From positions 124,001-188,000 of the forward strand of contig NZ_FQUY01000002.1 of assembly GCF_900129195.1 (NCBI RefSeq): DNA of 64,000 nucleotides, in the 5' to 3' direction. A program made the position numbers and the translations under genes. This document shows, one piece after another, positions 6,677 through 14,245 of this stretch. This DNA comes from Desulforamulus putei DSM 12395 (GTDB taxonomy: Bacteria > Bacillota > Desulfotomaculia > Desulfotomaculales > Desulfotomaculaceae). The notes beneath the pieces were generated by a model. That model made no database searches, was not told the origin of the DNA, and saw only the letters and a program-made list of their open reading frames with translations. Position 1 is the first letter of the stretch. Each line of letters begins with the position of its first letter.

Positions 6677-7081
6677 TTAATTGCTGGTGGGGGTGTTGAA
6701 GTTACCTATCATACCAGGGCCCATGCCGGTGCCGTTGCCCATCATGCCGGGACCCATACCGGAACCATTACCCATCATGTTCATCATGCCACCGTTCATC
6801 ATGGGGCCCATACCGTTTTTGCTGTGGAAGTCCTTCATTTGCTCAAAGTGTTGGTTCCAGGTTTTAGCCTGTTCTTCGGTAATCTTGCCGTCCTTTACGG
6901 CCTTGTCCAGCCAGGTTTTGTGCTGGTCAAACATTTGGTTAAAGAATTGCTGGTTCTTGGAGTTGTTTACGGTGTTGGTAGCATTATCAGGCTGGTTGTT
7001 GTCTATAGCAGCAAAGGCTGCGGGAACCATCAGGGCACCAAGGGCTACAGTTACAATACCGGCAATTAGTTTACGTTTCAT
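6677..7081 (-). CDS. Secreted DUF2680 protein with Met/Gly-rich tail
   Basis: 134 residues with a signal peptide (MKRKLIAGIVTVALGALM, cleavage near AAFAA-ID). A helical DUF2680 core follows (QQFFNQMFDQHKTWLDKA, DGKITEEQAKTWNQHFEQM), then a low-complexity tail of repeated NGMGPMM / GSGMGPGMMG units with about 17 Met. Met-rich extracytoplasmic tails are commonly linked to Cu(I)/Ag(I) binding, but no binding is shown here. The start follows GGAGG at 8 nt. A paralogue lies at 20134-20472. Promoter A upstream has the shared architecture. The 18-residue peptide gene at 7161-7217 lies between promoter and gene. Confidence 0.85.
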   Translation of the reverse strand: MKRKLIAGIVTVALGALMVPAAFAAIDNNQPDNATNTVNNSKNQQFFNQMFDQHKTWLDKAVKDGKITEEQAKTWNQHFEQMKDFHSKNGMGPMMNGGMMNMMGNGSGMGPGMMGNGTGMGPGMIGNFNTPTSN

Positions 7082-7160
7082 TCTTCATTCCTCCAAATTA
7101 AATATATTTTTTCGATAATGCTTGGAAGGGACAGTTTACCATCCTGCCCAGGACCATCTT

Positions 7161-7217
7161 TCAGCAACCACCCTTGCAGTGGGCCACTGCGGGGAGCATC
7201 CAGTGTTTGGTAAACAT
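7161..7217 (-). CDS. Possible 18-residue His/Cys peptide upstream of the DUF2680 gene
   Basis: ATG at 7217 is preceded by GGGAGGTG at 6 nt, one of the best ribosome sites in the area. The peptide is MFTKHWMLPAVAHCKGGC and then a stop. It lies in the leader between promoter A (-10 at 7259-7264) and the DUF2680 gene. The C-terminal HCKGGC resembles HCKG in the seven-Cys peptide at 11194-11322. It may be a real metal-binding micropeptide or a regulatory leader peptide; there is no homology support. Confidence 0.45.
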   Translation of the reverse strand: MFTKHWMLPAVAHCKGGC

Positions 7218-7258
7218 TTGGTTCACCTCCCGTCGGGGTGTTGTTCTTTACAGTTATT

Positions 7259-7308
7259 ACTATAGCAAAGACATTTTACAAAACTGTTTCATCAATATCA
7301 CATTTTGT
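7259..7308 (-). promoter_or_regulatory. Shared-architecture promoter/operator A
   Basis: Minus strand: ACAAAATGTGATATTGATG, then AGTTTTGTAAAATG. TTGTAA (7281-7276) is exactly 11 bp from the -10 TATAGT (7264-7259). It drives the 7217 micro-ORF and the DUF2680 gene. It is the closest match to promoter C (11786-11842). Confidence 0.65.
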
Positions 7309-7360
7309 TTATATTTTACTAAACCATCATAACAAGCAAGTGTTACTAATTTTTCTCGTA

Positions 7361-7424
7361 AGTTTAACATTTTTGTGATAATCCTTTGAATGCTTTGACA
7401 AGGGTTTGTTGTTAGCTTTACTAT
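7361..7424 (+). promoter_or_regulatory. Promoter of the two-component operon with related operator F
   Basis: TTGACA (7395-7400), 18 bp, TACTAT (7419-7424) forms a normal sigma-A promoter. The -35 overlaps TTTTTGTGATAATCC...TGCTTTGACAA, which resembles the operator in promoters A to E. This suggests autoregulation by the regulator encoded downstream. Confidence 0.6.
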
Positions 7425-7481
7425 AGATAGTAGCCAACCCTTGTCTCTGCAGGGGAGGCATATCTTAAAGGAGGGATATTC

Positions 7482-8171
7482 ATGCGCCAGTTTCGTGTGC
7501 TGGTTGTGGATGATGAAGATAAAATTCGTCAGGTTATTGGCATTTATTTAACCAATGAAGGATACCATGTGGGGGAAGCGGTGGATGGCGAGGAAGCCCT
7601 GCGGAAGTTTAGAGCCGAGTCCTGGGATTTAATCGTGCTGGACGTCATGATGCCCAAAATAGACGGTGTCACCGTGTGCCAGGAAATCCGCAAGGTATCC
7701 AAGGTGCCCATCATCATGCTGACAGCTAAGAACGAAGAGGTGGACCGCATTTTAGGCTTGGAGTTCGGAGCCGATGACTATATGGGCAAGCCCTTTAGCC
7801 CACGGGAGCTGGTGGCCCGGATTAAGGCGGTCATGCGACGGGTGGGCAGCGAAGAGAAAAAAGAGGGGCATCTATTAAAATTCCCCGGCCTGTGTATGGA
7901 TTTAATCAGCCGGGAGGTGCTGGTTAAGGATAAGCCTGTCACCCTGACTCCCAAGGAGTTTGAACTCCTGGCACTGTTAGCCAAGTCCACCGGGCGAGCC
8001 TACAGCCGGGAGCAGCTTTTGGAGGAGGTCTGGGGTTTTGACTACTACGGGGATGTGAGGACCGTTGACACCCACGTCAACCGGCTGCGGGACAAGCTGC
8101 GGGCCGCCGGTGCCGGCAACTTCATTAAAACCGTCTGGGGCGTGGGGTATAAATTTGAGGTGGAAGCATGA
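7482..8171 (+). CDS. OmpR/PhoB-family response regulator
   Basis: 229 residues, full length. The receiver (about 1-120) has the acidic pair VVDDED, phosphoacceptor VLDVMMP, Thr in MLTAK and Lys in MGKPFSPREL. The C-terminal winged helix (about 130-228) carries LTPKEFELLALLAKS, SREQLLEEVWGFDYYG, VDTHVNRLRDKL and the closing TVWGVGYKFE. The ATG follows AAAGGAGGG. The stop overlaps the start of the kinase gene by 4 nt, so the two are co-translated. I infer that it binds the repeated TTGTAA-type sites upstream of the small metal-rich genes, because these sites cluster around this operon and have the geometry typical of this family. Confidence 0.95.
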   Translation: MRQFRVLVVDDEDKIRQVIGIYLTNEGYHVGEAVDGEEALRKFRAESWDLIVLDVMMPKIDGVTVCQEIRKVSKVPIIMLTAKNEEVDRILGLEFGADDYMGKPFSPRELVARIKAVMRRVGSEEKKEGHLLKFPGLCMDLISREVLVKDKPVTLTPKEFELLALLAKSTGRAYSREQLLEEVWGFDYYGDVRTVDTHVNRLRDKLRAAGAGNFIKTVWGVGYKFEVEA

Positions 8172-9631
8172 AGCTAAACAACATTGTCACCAAACTATGG
8201 GTCATCATGACCATTTTGGTGCTGGTGGTGATCGGTATAGCCGGGGCGGCCCAGACCAGCTTTATGGAAGGGCTGTACTATGAACAACAGGCCAAGCAAC
8301 TGAAAAACCTGGGCAATAAGGTGGCGGACATCGCCCGTTCCGAAGAGGATCCTGTCGCCCTGGACAACAAGGTAGCCCTGATTGCCGGGTTGTATAACGC
8401 CAACGTGATGATTTTAAATGAGATGGGTATTGTTATGAGCTGCCAGGGTATGGGCATTAGCACCAAGGATATGCCGATGGATATGAGTAATCCCCACCAC
8501 GGCCCCTTGAACATGGGGGATCTACAAAAACTGTACCAAGGCCAAGCGGTGGTACTCAAGGGCAATAACCCTTTCTTTAAAACCGACGTGTTGTCGGTGG
8601 GCATTCCCTTTAAGGACCATGATAATATTTACCGGGCGGTCATTATCCATGCCCCCCTTGAACCCCTGGCAGACGAGCTGAAACGATTGCAGATGCTGAC
8701 CATCTACACCGCCGCCGGGGGCATTGCCCTGGCCGCCCTGTTAAGTTTGATTTTCTCCCGGTTTATTTCTAAACCCCTGGTGAAAATGAACAAAGCGGCC
8801 CTGGCAATGGCCAGCGGCAATTATCAGCAGCGGGTGAACATCCAGACCAACGATGAAATAGGTCTGCTGGCCAACTCCCTCAATACCTTGGCCTCCCGGC
8901 TGCAGGAAAAAATCAGCCAACTGGAACAACAGGAACAAATCCGCCGGGAGTTTGTCACCAACGTGGCCCACGAAATCAAAACCCCCCTGGCGGTTATGCA
9001 GGGATTCACCGAAACCTTGATCGATGGGCTGGTTAAGACCGAAAAGGAGCGAGATGAATATCTACAGAACATTTTAGACGAAATCAACCGCCTTAAGCGG
9101 CTGGTCAATGAGGTGCTGGATTTAAAGCGCATGGAAGAGGGACACTTTGATTTTGACCAGGAACCCTGTGACTTGCGGGAGATTATAGACCGGGTACAGC
9201 GAAAGCTCACTCAACTAACTGTCGAAAAAGGTCTTCACTTGGAAATCAACATAGAAAAGAAGCTACCTTTGGTCACCTGCAACAGCGACCGCATTGAAAG
9301 GGTGTTGATAAACTTAATCGACAATGCCATCCGACATACTCCCGCTGGAGGCAAAATCTCCGTCTGTGTGACCACTAAAGCTAATCAGGTGCACCTGCGC
9401 ATCAGCGACACAGGTGAGGGCATTGCACCGGAGGATCTGCCCATGATCTGGGAGAGATTTTACAAAGGGGACAAGTCTCGCACACGGGTACAGGGCGGCA
9501 CCGGTTTGGGGCTAGCTATCGTCAAGAGAATTGTGGAGGGCCACGGGGGACAGATAAATGTAGAAAGTAAGCCAAACGAAGGAACCACCTTTAACATCGT
9601 GCTGCCGGTTAACCACTTAGGCGTGGAATAA
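8168..9631 (+). CDS. Membrane sensor histidine kinase with Met/His/Cys-rich external loop
   Basis: 487 residues. TM1 is about 10-28 and TM2 about 177-198, separated by an external sensor domain of about 145 residues. A HAMP linker follows, then HisKA (FVTNVAHEIKTPLAVMQ, phospho-His268) and HATPase_c (NLIDNAIRHTPAGG, DTGEGI, GGTGLGLAIVKRIVEGHGG). Between residues 90 and 116 the sensor loop has Met90, Cys92, Met95, Met102, Met104, Met106, His110, His111 and Met116, a density unusual for a PAS-like sensor and suggestive of soft-metal binding. It pairs with the regulator at 7482. An inverted repeat (AGACCCGGGA at 9639) follows the gene but lacks a U-tract. Confidence 0.93.
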   Translation: MKLNNIVTKLWVIMTILVLVVIGIAGAAQTSFMEGLYYEQQAKQLKNLGNKVADIARSEEDPVALDNKVALIAGLYNANVMILNEMGIVMSCQGMGISTKDMPMDMSNPHHGPLNMGDLQKLYQGQAVVLKGNNPFFKTDVLSVGIPFKDHDNIYRAVIIHAPLEPLADELKRLQMLTIYTAAGGIALAALLSLIFSRFISKPLVKMNKAALAMASGNYQQRVNIQTNDEIGLLANSLNTLASRLQEKISQLEQQEQIRREFVTNVAHEIKTPLAVMQGFTETLIDGLVKTEKERDEYLQNILDEINRLKRLVNEVLDLKRMEEGHFDFDQEPCDLREIIDRVQRKLTQLTVEKGLHLEINIEKKLPLVTCNSDRIERVLINLIDNAIRHTPAGGKISVCVTTKANQVHLRISDTGEGIAPEDLPMIWERFYKGDKSRTRVQGGTGLGLAIVKRIVEGHGGQINVESKPNEGTTFNIVLPVNHLGVE

Positions 9632-9751
9632 CAACAACAGACCCGGGACATTTCCCGGGTCTATGCCTGTATTTTGACTATTCCTGTTCTTTTTTAACCT
9701 TCTGAAGCTTCCACCATACCAGGCATCATATACATTTTTACATATCGAACT

Positions 9752-9811
9752 TGTTACAAAAATGTGAAACTGTTGTTATGGCTTTGTTAAACTTCTTTGT
9801 TATTCTATGAT
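9752..9811 (+). promoter_or_regulatory. Shared-architecture promoter/operator B
   Basis: GTTACAAAAATGTGAAACTG, then CTTTGTTAAAC. TTGTTA (9784-9789) is 11 bp from TATTCT (9801-9806) and 16 bp from TATGAT (9806-9811). It lies just upstream of the SHOCT gene at 9850. Confidence 0.6.
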
Positions 9812-9849
9812 TAAGAAATCAATCAACCTACAACAAAGGAGTGAACACT

Positions 9850-10080
9850 ATGATGATGACGTTTGCAGGTGGCATTACAGGTTTTCTCTGGTCCCTTGTC
9901 ATGATTTTAGGTATGGCATTACCGGTGATTCTGGTGATATGGGCTCTGTTGGCTATAGGAGAACGGGCCACTGGAAGAAAAACCGGCGGCACAGCACCGC
10001 AGGAGATTTTAAAAACCCGGCTGGCCAAAGGGGAAATTTCTCTGGACGATTTTCAAAGAATAAGGGGCCAAATCACTTAG
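9850..10080 (+). CDS. Small membrane protein with C-terminal SHOCT motif
   Basis: 76 residues from ATG 9850 (AAAGGAG, 8 nt spacing; the in-frame GTG at 9841 is too close to it). One or two membrane spans (TGFLWSLVMILGMALPVILVI) are followed by a basic linker and a SHOCT motif (PQEILKTRLAKGEISLDDFQ). SHOCT is a short oligomerisation-type C-terminal motif found on many small membrane proteins; the precise role is unknown. It is a single gene behind promoter B, with its own terminator. A second SHOCT protein lies at 11354-11587. Confidence 0.85.
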   Translation: MMMTFAGGITGFLWSLVMILGMALPVILVIWALLAIGERATGRKTGGTAPQEILKTRLAKGEISLDDFQRIRGQIT

Positions 10081-10090
10081 GGCTTAGGGC

Positions 10091-10114
10091 CTGTGGCGTA
10101 AACCACAGTTTTTT
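10091..10114 (+). terminator. Terminator of the SHOCT gene
   Basis: CTGTGG, loop CGTAAA, CCACAG, then TTTTTT, 10 bp beyond the stop. Confidence 0.88.
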
Positions 10115-10137
10115 GACAATGGTGTTAAAGTATAAAA

Positions 10138-10183
10138 AACCAAAAGCCAGGAGCAAGGGTTTATTGCTGCCTGGCTTTTGGTT
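10138..10183. terminator. Second hairpin after the SHOCT gene
   Basis: Perfect 14-bp inverted repeat (AACCAAAAGCCAGG / CCTGGCTTTTGGTT). The + strand reads on into TTTAGTT. Between here and 10384 nothing coding is seen apart from a short, start-less minus-strand frame. Confidence 0.6.
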
Positions 10184-10384
10184 TAGTTAAACTCATCAAC
10201 CAGTTTTTAAGTTCCTCAGTCATTTGATTATTGTATTTCGATATGTTATCAATACTTTGCTTTGAGATAAAAAATTATAACGAATATATCTAATGGAAAA
10301 AAGAGACAATAAAAATTACCTATGACTCAGTGCTTCATTCCTTAGCACTGATAAATATGGCCAGATATATTTTCTTGAAGTGAG

Positions 10385-10417
10385 ACAAAAGCGCACCTAA
10401 CAATGGTACGCTTTTGT
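10385..10417 (-). terminator. Probable end of the small-protein operon
   Basis: ACAAAAGCG / CGCTTTTGT, 9 bp, lies 15 bp beyond the minus-strand stop at 10432. The tail TTTTGTC is modest. Confidence 0.55.
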
Positions 10418-10431
10418 ACAAACCCTTTACG

Positions 10432-10623
10432 TTAAGCCATACCGCTCTGAATCTGCTGTAGGGAAAAATTACATTCCTCTATACAGAGAGCCAGATGGTG
10501 TGCGCCTTCGATTAGCTTGTTTTTTGCCATAGGGTCTGGTTCGGTGTTGGCCATGTTCCGTAATTGGGCCGAGATTTGCTGACAGGTCTGGATACACTGT
10601 TGAATTGTTTGGGCAGATTGCAT
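10432..10623 (-). CDS. 63-residue CxxxC helical-hairpin protein (half-size Csp-like)
   Basis: Starts at ATG 10623 behind GGAGGTGA. Two predicted amphipathic helices each carry one CxxxC: C10-IQT-C14 and C47-IEE-C51, with AHH before the second. The paralogue at 10662-10838 has Cys at exactly the same positions (10, 14, 47, 51). CxxxC pairs lining helices are the hallmark of four-helix-bundle copper storage proteins (Csp; DUF326-like), which are roughly twice this size and richer in Cys. I infer a minimal two-helix version that may dimerise into a bundle. There is no signal peptide, so it is cytosolic. It is the last gene of the operon beginning at 11587. Confidence 0.75.
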   Translation of the reverse strand: MQSAQTIQQCIQTCQQISAQLRNMANTEPDPMAKNKLIEGAHHLALCIEECNFSLQQIQSGMA

Positions 10624-10661
10624 TGTTGATTTCACCTCCGATAAGTTCCAATTAAAAGTTT

Positions 10662-10838
10662 TTAAGGCATCCGCATGAGGCTTTCGCACTGGCGGATACA
10701 CATCTCGATATGACTGGCACCTAAGGTAAGCATTTCCCTTACACCGGCGTTATTAATCCCGTTAGCCGAACTACGCAGATCGTTGGCTGCTTTGGTGCAG
10801 GTTTGGATACACTGGGCCAACTGCTGCTTATTTTGCAT
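10662..10838 (-). CDS. 58-residue CxxxC helical-hairpin protein (half-size Csp-like)
   Basis: Starts at ATG 10838 behind a GGGGTGGTGGG-type ribosome site; an in-frame ATG 18 nt upstream lacks one. CIQTC at 10-14 and CIRQC at 47-51 mirror the neighbour at 10432-10623, and both share AQCIQTC/QQCIQTC and a GA(S/H)H segment before the second motif. This is a tandem duplication. The ends are Met-rich (EMCIRQCESLMRMP). Cytosolic, no signal. Soft-metal binding, probably Cu(I), is inferred from CxxxC-on-helix geometry and from its place in an operon with a seven-Cys peptide. Other thiol-redox roles are possible. Confidence 0.75.
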   Translation of the reverse strand: MQNKQQLAQCIQTCTKAANDLRSSANGINNAGVREMLTLGASHIEMCIRQCESLMRMP

Positions 10839-10898
10839 TTTCCCACCACCCCTCATTTTTAAGTCAGAGTTATAGTCCCCGGTAGTATTACTTAATAT

Positions 10899-11093
10899 TC
10901 AGCAGTACCCAAAAAACCAGAGAGCATGTGAGTTCTGCTCTCTGGCTTTACTTTTTAACTCTTTAACTCTGGTCATGCTTATGTGGCTGCCGGGATTTGT
11001 TCCTTTTACAAAGGTGTAGCCTAGGGCGGTGGAAAAGACCAACACAATGCCGGTAATGCCTAGGCTGATTTTGGTGATAAGCTTAAATTTCAT
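10899..11093 (-). CDS. Small single-span membrane protein, probable frameshift at the 3' end
   Basis: ATG 11093 follows GGGGAGGT. As read, 64 residues: one membrane span (LITKISLGITGIVLVFSTALGY) and a short tail. The last 15 codons run straight through a strong terminator hairpin (10911-10945), which is abnormal. Adding one A to the A4 run at 11001-11004 gives a tail FVKRNKSRQPHKHDQS and a stop before the hairpin, which looks more natural and adds a HKHD cluster. The gene is the third of the five-gene minus-strand operon. Function unknown. Confidence 0.55.
   Translation of the reverse strand: MKFKLITKISLGITGIVLVFSTALGYTFVKGTNPGSHISMTRVKELKSKAREQNSHALWFFGYC
10911..10945 (-). terminator. Internal terminator upstream of the CxxxC genes
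   Basis: On the minus strand CCAGAGAGC, 11-nt loop, GCTCTCTGG, then TTTTTT. It would reduce transcription of the two CxxxC genes relative to the promoter-proximal genes. Confidence 0.8.
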
Positions 11094-11193
11094 TGGTGCT
11101 ACCTCCCCAACACCTTTCTTGCGAGAGATGGCAGGCCATAGGGCCTGCCTGGTGAGGTTACTTTGCTGATGTACATAGATAGTTTCCTCGGTG

Positions 11194-11322
11194 CTAAACC
11201 ACACCGTCGGCCTGTATCTTGCCTTTACAGTGAATCACTCCAGTGGCGCATCCCCGGCAGGTTCCTGTAGACTTGCATGAACTGCACTGGCAGTGTTGAC
11301 AGGCCGGATATTTCTTAATCAT
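11194..11322 (-). CDS. 42-residue seven-Cys, metallothionein-like peptide
   Basis: ATG 11322 follows GGGAGGATAACC. Cys at 8, 11, 13, 16, 22, 25 and 32 (motifs CQHCQC, CKSTGTCRGC, HCKG) plus two His in 42 residues give a composition like small bacterial metallothioneins or Cys-rich metal chaperones. No homologue is identified. There is no signal peptide. It lies 31 bp downstream of the SHOCT gene and upstream of the membrane and CxxxC genes, so all five probably share promoter C. Metal (Cu/Zn/Cd) binding is inferred from composition. Confidence 0.72.
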   Translation of the reverse strand: MIKKYPACQHCQCSSCKSTGTCRGCATGVIHCKGKIQADGVV

Positions 11323-11353
11323 GGTTATCCTCCCGAAACCAAGAATAATTTTA

Positions 11354-11587
11354 CTACCGGGATAATTCTTCTTTAAGTTTTTTGTACTCATCTTCAGTTA
11401 TCTCGTTCCGGGCATATCTGGACTTTAAAATATCTAGGGCACCGGACGATGAACCTTCCTTAAGTGCACTTTTTACTCCTGAGTTTACCGCCCAATAGAC
11501 AACCAGACCTAACAGAGCCAGCGGGATCAACATCATAAAAATCCCCCCAAACCATCCCATACCATAGCCACCGTACATCATTGGCAT
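11354..11587 (-). CDS. Small membrane protein with SHOCT motif, first gene of the five-gene operon
   Basis: 77 residues. ATG 11587 follows AAAGGAGG at 8 nt. A Met/Gly/Tyr-rich N-terminus (MPMMYGGYGMGWFGG) leads into one or two membrane spans (IFMMLIPLALLGLVVYWAV) and a SHOCT tail (GALDILKSRYARNEITEDEY). It is related in layout to the protein at 9850-10080 but differs in its Met-rich start. It is promoter-proximal behind operator C. The family is widespread, with no established function. Confidence 0.87.
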   Translation of the reverse strand: MPMMYGGYGMGWFGGIFMMLIPLALLGLVVYWAVNSGVKSALKEGSSSGALDILKSRYARNEITEDEYKKLKEELSR

Positions 11588-11785
11588 AACGCATTCCTCC
11601 TTTAAGTTTTTTCTATTGTTCCCATAAGGGGTTGATTTTAAAAAGTGCCCTTATTAAGGGCAAATCATGAAAGGTGATACCGCGGGTCTTTCTTTCTCTA
11701 CAGATCGCTTTATCTTTAGGCGGCCCTAAGATTATCTAAACTGGCCTGTTGTATAATCAACCTCCTGTAATGGGTTTATGAATTG

Positions 11786-11842
11786 ATTATATAAATAAAA
11801 GTTTACAAAACTATGGCATGAATATCACATTTTTGTAATACT
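11786..11842 (-). promoter_or_regulatory. Shared-architecture promoter/operator C
   Basis: Minus strand: ATTACAAAAATGTGATATTC, ATGCCATAG, then TTTTGTAAAC. TTGTAA (11808-11803) is 11 bp from TATAAT (11791-11786). It is about 200 bp upstream of the SHOCT start at 11587. This is the best -10 in the family. Confidence 0.7.
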
Positions 11843-11919
11843 TCACGGACCTTGTTTTGCAGGACCAAAGCTTTAATTCTAGGGAGATATGGAAACCTTA
11901 TTTCCATTTTGCGGCAAAA

Positions 11920-11975
11920 TTATCACAAAAACGTTAAACGGCTGTGCTGTTTTTGTAAAACTTGGTTGTTATGAT
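11920..11975 (+). promoter_or_regulatory. Shared-architecture promoter/operator E
   Basis: TTATCACAAAAACGTTAAAC, then TGTTTTTGTAAAAC. TTGTAA (11953-11958) is 11 bp from TATGAT (11970-11975). GT-ending units recur every 11 bp. It lies just upstream of the Met-rich PepSY-like gene. Promoters C and E are divergent, with their -10 elements about 180 bp apart. Confidence 0.65.
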
Positions 11976-12004
11976 AAAGCCATAAAGCAAAGGAGGGGAT
12001 CGTT

Positions 12005-12726
12005 TTGAACAAAAAACTGCTGGTATCAGGATTATATTGATCGTGACACTTTTGTTATCCATACCTGTTCTAACTTCCGCCAATGTCAAGGAGAACTTTG
12101 GGGGCTGGGGAATGGGACAGGGACTGCCTGGAATGGGAATGATGGGTTCTTCTATGATGGGCATCCACGGCAACATGATGGGCAACGGCGGTATTGCCCT
12201 GAAGGAGCCGGTAGATTCTGAAAAGGCAGAGGAGTTGGTCAATGACTATTTAAAAACTTCAGGACTAGAGGGCATTTCCTTGGCGGAAGTGATGGAGTTT
12301 GATACCCACTTTTATGTGGAGACAAGGGAAGACCAAAGTGGCAAGTATGCCCAAGAGTTTATTTTGGATAAGCATACCGGCTCCATCAGCCCGGAAATGG
12401 GGCCCAATATGATGTGGAATGTCAAGTACGGGCATATGGGCGGTATGATGATGGGTTACAGTTCAGAGACCAGTGATAAGCCATCTGTTTCACCGGAGGA
12501 TTCTATAAAAATTGCCAACGATTTTTTAAAGGGAAACAATTCCGGTGAGACTGCGGCTGAACCCCATGAATTTTATGGCTACTACACTCTGCACACTCTT
12601 AAAGACGGAAAAATCGTTGGCATGCTCAGTGTCAACAGTGCCACCGGTCAAGTCTGGTATCACACTTGGCACGGTAACTTTGTCGGAATGGAAAGCGCCG
12701 ATGGTCATGCCCATCAGGAAGCATAA
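12005..12726 (+). CDS. Met-rich exported protein with two PepSY-like repeats; frameshift in the signal peptide
   Basis: A TTG at 12005 with AAAGGAGGGG upstream begins MNKK but stops after 11 codons. The long frame from 12037 has no ribosome site and starts inside a signal-peptide core (IVTLLLSIPVLTSA). One extra A in the A6 run at 12011-12016 would join them as MNKKTAGIRIILIVTLLLS, a textbook signal peptide. The mature protein has a Met/Gly-rich head (GMGQGLPGMGMMGSSMMG) and two PepSY-like units (EKAEELVNDYLKTSG...LDKHTGSI and SIKIANDFLKG...NSATGQVWYHTWHG). A central MGGMMMG stretch and a His-rich end complete it. The role is unknown; extracytoplasmic metal binding is plausible. Promoter E. 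Confidence 0.75.
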
Positions 12727-12746
12727 AAACAATACAGTAACTACAT

Positions 12747-12771
12747 AGCCCCTGTTATAAAAACAGGGGCT
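12747..12771. other. Perfect hairpin without U-tract
   Basis: AGCCCCTG / CAGGGGCT, 8 bp, 9-nt loop, lies between the PepSY-like gene and the TGA-containing small gene. It may be an mRNA-stability or processing element within one transcript. Confidence 0.5.
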
Positions 12772-12815
12772 AAACTTACCCAAGATCATTTATAAGCATA
12801 AAAGGAGGTCTTAGG

Positions 12816-13004
12816 GTGGAGAACATTACCAATTACCTGCCACTGCTGTTGATTGTTTTAATGATAGCGATGATGTTCCGGGGTGGCGGCTGATGCGGCG
12901 GCCACAGTCACCGTAACCACGGGACTACCGGGCAGTTGCCCGGCAAAAAGAACTGTTGTGAGGATAAAGAAAATACTCATGAGGATAAAACAGGGAAAAA
13001 ATAA
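12816..13004 (+). CDS. Small membrane protein with in-frame TGA: candidate selenoprotein or nonsense-broken gene
   Basis: GTG 12816 follows AAAGGAGG at 7 nt. Codons 1-25 read VENITNYLPLLLIVLMIAMM then FRGGG, a single membrane span. Codon 26 is TGA (12891-12893). The same frame continues as CGGHSHRNHGTTGQ... with NCCEDKENTHED and stops at 13004 (62 codons), directly before a terminator. The continuation is rich in Cys and His, as expected of a real C-terminus (membrane span followed by Cys/His-rich tail). TGA stands where a Cys of a CC pair would be expected. Hairpins follow it: CCGU-AACC-ACGG with outer AGUC/GACU, and CCGGGC-AGUU-GCCCGG. Confidence 0.5.
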
Positions 13005-13045
13005 GAAACAGGTTCTCACACAGTGGGAGCCTGTTTCCTTTATAA
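13005..13045. terminator. Bidirectional terminator
   Basis: GAAACAGG / CCTGTTTC with pairing continued inward. T-rich tails lie on both sides (CCTTTATAA to the right; TTATTTTTTCCC on the minus strand). It serves the + gene ending at 13004 and the - gene ending at 13052. Confidence 0.8.
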
Positions 13046-13051
13046 AGGTAA

Positions 13052-13375
13052 TTATTTTATACCCATTGCTTCTTTGGCCATCGGCATTAGTTTGGGGTCC
13101 TTCATCATGGCCATGAAAGTATCTTTCATTTGGGGGGCGGCCATTATTTCCATCATAGGCTGCATCATGGACGGGTCGGACATGATTTTGACCATAGCTT
13201 CTCTGGTCTTTTGGTCACTCATGATCTTCACCATGTTTTTCTGCATATCGGAGTTGTGCATCATGTCCATCATGACGGGCATCATTTTTTCAGAGCTCAT
13301 GATTTTGGTCATTGATTGGCTTGCATCGGGGGAACTCATGGCCTCTATCATCATGTCAGGGTTCTGGTTCATCAT
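13052..13375 (-). CDS. Met-repeat protein (about 25% Met), probably 5'-truncated
   Basis: 107 residues with about 27 Met, organised as repeats of the type MxKIMSDxxxxxxMVKIMSD (SMTKIMSS, NMVKIMSDQKTREAMVKIMS, MMEIMAAPQMKDTFMAMM). No ribosome site precedes the ATG at 13375. The same frame upstream reads GGQLGCLQTAG, which looks like the end of a lipoprotein signal (LGC), but a stop precedes it and no start is found. The gene may have lost its signal sequence by deletion or frameshift. On the + strand, 13385-13522 encodes a start-less hydrophobic stretch (ALLALGLLIYKWKEK). Function unknown; Met-rich metal binding is plausible. Confidence 0.6.
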   Translation of the reverse strand: MMNQNPDMMIEAMSSPDASQSMTKIMSSEKMMPVMMDMMHNSDMQKNMVKIMSDQKTREAMVKIMSDPSMMQPMMEIMAAPQMKDTFMAMMKDPKLMPMAKEAMGIK

Positions 13376-13678
13376 ACCGGCGGTTTGAAGGCAGCCCAGT
13401 TGACCACCCTGGGTACGGCGTTGCTGGCACTGGGGCTACTTATCTACAAATGGAAAGAAAAATCAAGACGCCAGATAGGGATGACAGGGTTAAGAGTATA
13501 TAGTAAATCAAGGCGACCATAAAAATGAAGGTCGCATTGATTTTGACGTCTTTTAACTAACTACTCCGAGACCAGCACATACATTTATGCAAAATAAGGA
13601 AAATTTGTTTTTGTAATATTCCTTTTCAATCTCTGTATAAATAATTTAAAAACAAAGTTGGAAGGAGGGGAGTACCCT

Positions 13679-14245
13679 TTGTGTGATGACATCAAGAATA
13701 AATCCTTGAGCATTTCAGGCGCAGAACATGTTAACCGTTGGTGTGCGTTGCCTGCTCCGTATCCAGAGCCTAGGGTTGTTCGTCCCAATCATTATTATGC
13801 CATGCTTATATTGGAGGATTACGCGGGTGCAGTGAGCGAAATGACTGCGATTAACCAATACTTTTATCATTACCTGACCTTTGAGGAAAAATATGAAGAT
13901 TTAGCGGAGTTGGAAGAATGTATTTCTATTATAGAGATGCATCACCTTGAATTGCTTGGCGAAACCATCCGTATGCTGGGGGTTGAGCCCGAGTACCGAA
14001 CACTAACCCATAACCAACCTGTTTATTGGAATGCATCCTTTGTGTACTACGGGCAGAACATCTGTGACAGGCTGGCCTCCGATATTGCGGCGGAGAAAAT
14101 GGCGATCCGGAATTACAGGATGCACCAGCAAATGATTGATGACCCCTACATTAAAGAGCTACTGGAAAGAATCATCATGGATGAGCAACACCACCTTCAA
14201 CTGTTTACCAGCTATGCGCAGAAATATTGTCCAGGAATGAAATAA
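13679..14245 (+). CDS. Ferritin-like (bacterioferritin/Mn-catalase-like) protein
   Basis: 188 residues from the TTG at 13679, which lies 8 nt after GGAGGGG. Four helices carry the carboxylate/His pattern of ferritin-like di-iron (or di-Mn) proteins: Glu in AVSEMTAINQYFYH, ExxH in SIIEMHHLELLGE, Glu in IAAEKMAIRNYR and ExxH in IMDEQHHLQLF. It belongs with the short bacterioferritin-related and spore-coat CotJC-like groups. The reaction could be peroxide removal or iron handling. It sits at the end of the metal-rich block; the upstream TTTTTGTAATATTCC recalls the shared operator but lacks the 11-bp -10 spacing. Confidence 0.82.
   Translation: MCDDIKNKSLSISGAEHVNRWCALPAPYPEPRVVRPNHYYAMLILEDYAGAVSEMTAINQYFYHYLTFEEKYEDLAELEECISIIEMHHLELLGETIRMLGVEPEYRTLTHNQPVYWNASFVYYGQNICDRLASDIAAEKMAIRNYRMHQQMIDDPYIKELLERIIMDEQHHLQLFTSYAQKYCPGMK

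Follow-up and report, generated by a model that had tools for sequence, protein, structure and literature searches.

A tandem pair of small CxxxC hairpin proteins related to DUF1657, possibly forming a copper-binding bundle in the forespore

Introduction

Half-ferritins of the EncB type are half-size chains, two of which assemble around metal as a four-helix bundle; they use di-iron Glu/His sites, carry no CxxxC motif and have no sequence relation to the proteins described here. The twin CX3C proteins (small Tims, FAM136A/DUF842), which are eukaryotic and disulfide-stapled, place a CX3C motif on both arms of a hairpin whose helices run antiparallel. Copper storage proteins (Csp; DUF326, PF03860), exemplified by Csp3/YhjQ of Bacillus subtilis, are one-chain bundles of about 110–130 residues with more than ten Cys, whose helices likewise carry inward-facing CxxxC motifs and whose first hairpin has Cys at offsets 0, 4, 37 and 41. 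B. subtilis Csp3 has a known link to sporulation, and the csp3 operon also has a spore-protein neighbour, yhjR (PMC9484137). DUF1657 (PF07870) comprises small proteins and the C-terminal domain of the spore protein 2Duf, where it forms a hairpin of two long helices, and it is found near spoVA genes (PMC10126465). It is encoded by spore genes, with DUF421 (YetF) proteins as partner or neighbours, and its canonical small members lack conserved Cys.

Here we describe a gene pair, A and B, in a window of 64,000 nucleotides from Desulforamulus putei DSM 12395. Its products have the same length as the DUF1657 hairpin and are about half as long as Csp, with four Cys each as opposed to about 19, on two separate, paralogous chains.

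Results

Two tandem genes in a putative bicistronic unit

Translation agrees with the first-pass annotation, which had described two tandem genes for proteins of 63 (A) and 58 (B) residues, each with Cys at positions 10, 14, 47 and 51 (Table 1). Longer starts, giving 89 and 64 residues, are also listed for these open reading frames; the ATG starts used here agree with the homologues and have good ribosome-binding sites, that of gene A, GGAGGTGA, lying ahead of it. The probability that four randomly placed Cys coincide over 58 positions is 2e-6, and the two proteins are 39% identical (E 5e-12). By this comparison A and B are paralogues, and their identical Cys positions are attributable to homology, that is, to gene duplication, and not to chance. 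Since a probable terminator lies ahead of the pair, A and B would begin their own transcription unit, read from a sigma-G-like site that is weak taken alone; the orthologous loci L032 and L033 have better sigma-G-like sites upstream (p 0.03–0.05). The strong hairpin downstream of gene A, which a terminator scan left unflagged, may close the unit.

Table 1. Features of the window around the A/B pair
Feature	Position	Strand	Description
Gene B	10662-10838	-	58 aa; CxxxC at 10/14 and 47/51; HxxxCxxxC in helix 2 (H43); first gene of the operon
Gene A	10432-10623	-	63 aa; CxxxC at 10/14 and 47/51; H42/H43; second gene of the operon
Sigma-G-like promoter	10871-10900	-	-35 GAATA (10900-10896), 18 nt, -10 GACTATA (10877-10871); p 0.13
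Hairpin followed by T run	10913-10949	-	RNA fold; probably terminates the minus-strand gene before it
Strong hairpin downstream of A	10384-10419	-	RNA fold; possible end of the bicistronic unit; lacks a clean T run
Met-rich DUF2680 protein	6677-7081	-	conserved close to family members in G069 and G055
Response regulator and histidine kinase with Met-rich sensor segment	7482-9631	+	same island in G069 and G055
Metallothionein-like protein	11197-11322	-	42 aa, 7 Cys
Small Met-rich membrane protein with SHOCT domain	11354-11587	-	same island in G069 and G055
Met-rich secreted or membrane protein	12037-12726	+	conserved close to family members in G069, G055 and G412
Met-rich protein	13052-13375	-	weakly similar to GerD core; conserved in G069
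Ferritin-like protein	13658-14245	+	homologues near pair or remnant in L032, L033 and L037

An uncatalogued family with conserved Cys

Searches with the two proteins gave no significant match in Pfam, chance matches only in NCBIfam and nothing significant in the PDB, whether by single sequence or by profile; one chance-level PDB match was to the CxxxC-rich chain 3lmf. A search of open-access literature on small CxxxC spore proteins likewise yielded nothing on the family, which is so far uncatalogued. Protein A (P0001) has relatives in 17 of the 113 genomes from its class, and a search of genome contigs with the same protein gave a match in Anaerovirgula multivorans. A profile of 19 members matched 55 of 398 sampled Bacillota genomes, representing 44 of 266 genera, with strong matches in about 35 genomes. 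The set collected for analysis comprises 79 members at about 47 loci, 31 of which hold tandem pairs with intergenic gaps of 21–67 nt.

The four Cys are the sole fully invariant columns of the 19-member alignment, and all four are present in 58 of the 79 collected members, in keeping with the first-pass expectation that they be conserved in homologues. The CxxxC of helix 2 is the best-conserved motif (74/79), and one turn ahead of it stands H43, which 41 of the 46 proteins in the main pair clade have; the Cys and this one His make up the conserved residues of the family. Members that depart from the four-Cys pattern mostly lack exactly one Cys (18 of 21 departures), in about eight independent lineages on our reading of the tree. 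At two loci, L109 and L110, downstream partners lack three of the four Cys and upstream partners have three or four, forming natural asymmetric pairs.

In a tree that rests on few columns and has many unresolved forks, the 23 pairs of the main pair clade, spread over more than 20 genera, split by type, with upstream genes apart from downstream ones. The A and B types occur in swapped order at L087, and both are therefore kept whatever the gene order. The split by type and the swap are better explained by a pair of specialised partners than by recent duplications at each locus. Judged by this tree, the A/B pair usually stems from one old duplication; the remaining lineages have a single gene or pairs of separate origin. 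An old, co-conserved pair is consistent with a heteromer.

Predicted hairpin and candidate bundle

Given 67 sequences, AlphaFold2 predicted protein A as helices 2–27 and 31–60, with a mean pLDDT of 95.6 and a pTM of 0.78. The Cys lie at -27, 13, -39 and 1 degrees relative to the hydrophobic face, all within 40 degrees of it. The two-helix unit with one CxxxC per helix, as originally proposed, is matched by a confident predicted hairpin. For the pair, we modelled the natural B–A genes of L032 (genome G090), whose A product is 76% identical to P0001; the genes lie in frame, the intergenic stops were read as serine, and the alignment consisted of 9 natural read-throughs. The resulting chain has four helices (pLDDT 84.2, pTM 0.78; linker below 50), which is suggestive of B and A associating as a four-helix bundle, with the linker and the few sequences (9) biasing the model toward that outcome.

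Among solved structures, EncB half-ferritins are nearest to the hairpin, no fold match being significant by E-value. The fused B–A model resembles ferritin-like bundles (TM 0.70) more than Csp entries, on which it superposes poorly (TM 0.36), none of these matches being significant by E-value either. Pairing into a bundle, the arrangement first envisaged for the two units, is recovered as four helices when B and A are folded as one chain, and the bundle so obtained is closer to ferritin-like folds than to Csp. The Glu/His di-iron ligands of half-ferritins are missing from the family, and its CxxxC motifs are predicted to face the bundle core as in Csp.

A Cys-bearing sister of DUF1657

The strongest profile relative of the family is DUF1657, to which it aligns end to end (hhalign probability 81%, E 1.3e-5, rising to 92% for single-gene members; controls, reversed or column-shuffled, stay below 1%). 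The PF07870 cut-off is not reached (best E 0.0011 among the 19 members), and neither A nor B is listed. For PF03860 there is no match above cut-off to A, B or anything else in the organism's own genome. On these profile comparisons the family is a Cys-bearing sister of DUF1657, and by cut-off a member of neither DUF326 nor DUF1657. The same genome has three DUF1657 stretches, one within a 2Duf-like protein (L117; G000:C23, about 93879-94022) whose DUF1657 domain contains a CxxxC (KKCQADC).

Might A and B be structural spore proteins that hold no metal, either as twin-CX3C hairpins closed by two disulfides, as in the small Tims and FAM136A, or as DUF1657-like helices that support YetF-type inner-membrane proteins? 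That the best profile relative is a domain forming two long helices in 2Duf (PMC10126465) would fit, as would the YetF/DUF421 genes that flank several family loci, a DsbD-type gene adjoining the pair in L004 and a weak match of the family to DUF842, which probably reflects the twin-CX3C pattern. Stapling, however, predicts that Cys are lost and kept in disulfide pairs. Single losses are instead common in this family, stranding a partner under the expected C10–C51/C14–C47 pairing, and together with the retention of the helix-2 CxxxC they speak against an obligatory double staple. Moreover, these Cys are missing from most ordinary DUF1657 proteins of the same class, and Cu-ATPase genes lie near some of the pairs (see below). 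We regard a purely structural role, the main competitor of the model proposed below, as unlikely.

The Cys offsets of the family (0, 4, 37, 41) are a subset of those in Csp (0, 4, 7, 11, 14, 18, 30, 37, 41), and part of this agreement could be due to chance, as Csp has several CxxxC motifs. Aligned without gaps to the N-terminal half of Csp, the family reaches an hhalign probability of 30%, and the downstream genes alone 52%, against 1–2% for reversed controls. Csp and family members share a genome once among 35, compared with 3.2 expected, a difference that is not significant (p 0.15). Such observations could be read as traces of a true split Csp, the pair deriving from the first half of a Csp protein. 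We consider this descent highly doubtful, given the stronger DUF1657 profile match, the missing DUF326 match and a fused model whose topology is unlike that of Csp. Compared directly, Csp and DUF1657 show no profile similarity. Direct Csp membership, which the first-pass annotation had suggested checking by profile, was rejected on the missing DUF326 match. In genome G012 (L035 1277-1618, 1968-2054), an intact Csp gene with DUF326 neighbours what is left of the 3' end of gene A, the two being separated by a DUF1540 gene; replacement of an A/B pair by this Csp is possible.

Sporulation context

The sigma-G motif reaches p<=0.05 in 16 of 48 upstream regions of the family and in 8 of 215 control genes from the same loci (Fisher p 4e-8; close relatives were counted separately, which inflates the significance somewhat). 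At the same threshold, and scored like all sigma motifs against dinucleotide shuffles, the overlapping sigma-F motif is found in 10 of the 48 regions. Promoters for sigma-E, A, K and H were rejected as candidates, with 5, 2, 0 and 0 of 48 regions at p<=0.05. Sigma-G-like control would distinguish A/B from Csp3, which is under sigma-K. SpoIVA is present in 34 of the 35 genomes with strong family matches and in 301 of 363 others (Fisher p 0.015), a weak association in that most sampled genomes (335/398) sporulate anyway. The sporulation side of the family, with its sigma-G-like promoters and YetF neighbours, is new relative to the earlier reading of this DNA.

Copper genes and a Met-rich island

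In 6 of 25 genomes, compared with 0.29 expected, family genes have a TIGR01511 Cu-ATPase gene no more than about 5 kb away, a distance chosen once the data had been seen. Individual loci also have CopD or a multicopper oxidase as a neighbour, and overall copper genes are nearby only at a minority of family loci. The copper-storage-like character originally ascribed to A and B holds in part: inward Cys at Csp spacings and copper-related neighbours at some loci agree with it, whereas membership of DUF326 does not stand and DUF1657 is closer.

At positions 6677-13375 of the window, genes for Met-rich proteins surround a two-component system. This island recurs in G069 and G055, with a single-type family gene in place of the pair. 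From its Met-rich sensor and proteins, the island looks like one that responds to copper or silver. Within these positions also lies the gene for the metallothionein-like protein (ACQHCQCSSC...CRGC...C), which matches nothing in Pfam and has no homologue among the loci compared. DUF1540-type small Cys-rich genes occur near family genes or remnants at L034, L035, L037, L038, L042, L083, L084 and L090. Plasmid or phage cargo was also considered, and no match was found.

Would a metal other than copper serve as well? Four Cys on two helices can form a tetrathiolate site, and hairpins for zinc, iron-sulfur or another metal would suit the DUF1540 Cys-rich neighbours seen at several loci. The nearby enrichment of copper genes argues otherwise, as does the Csp arrangement of in-helix CxxxC motifs directed toward the bundle core, and we find this alternative improbable.

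Discussion

We propose the following model for the A/B pair. The two proteins would be minimal thiolate helical hairpins of a DUF1657-related family, expressed as a bicistronic unit in the developing forespore from a sigma-G/F-type promoter. A and B may then pair into a four-helix bundle with eight inward Cys, two CxxxC motifs per hairpin, and a His before the CxxxC of helix 2. Such a bundle could hold a soft metal, Cu(I) being the likeliest, and the spore would thereby buffer or store copper, much as Csp does with a one-chain bundle. What the analysis shows directly are the two genes, their conserved Cys, a predicted hairpin, an A/B pair of old standing, the enriched promoter motif and the neighbouring Cu-ATPase and YetF genes. 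Forespore expression, heterodimerisation, metal binding and the identity of the metal are all inferred, and for the full model of forespore-made, heteromeric thiolate hairpins that bind copper we put the probability at roughly 0.42. The best explanation that we can offer is that the A/B bundle works like a minimal Csp or a half-ferritin, by analogy with both, without being a Csp. The pattern of Cys loss is compatible with a metal held by three or four thiolates together with H43.

A more specific version, which we consider unlikely, is that these are a widespread family of two-chain copper-storage bundles in which DUF1657-type spore hairpins independently gained a Csp-like CxxxC spacing, to bring Cu(I) into the forespore core of anaerobic spore-formers that lack Csp.

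What would the pair mean for the biology of these spores? If the proposed model is true, storage of copper, or of a thiol-bound metal, exists as a very small two-chain unit, and the role of DUF1657/YetF proteins and copper handling in anaerobic spores, two open questions, would be linked. A and B are tiny, look soluble and are easily tested, and the natural single-Cys losses of the family provide ready-made variants.
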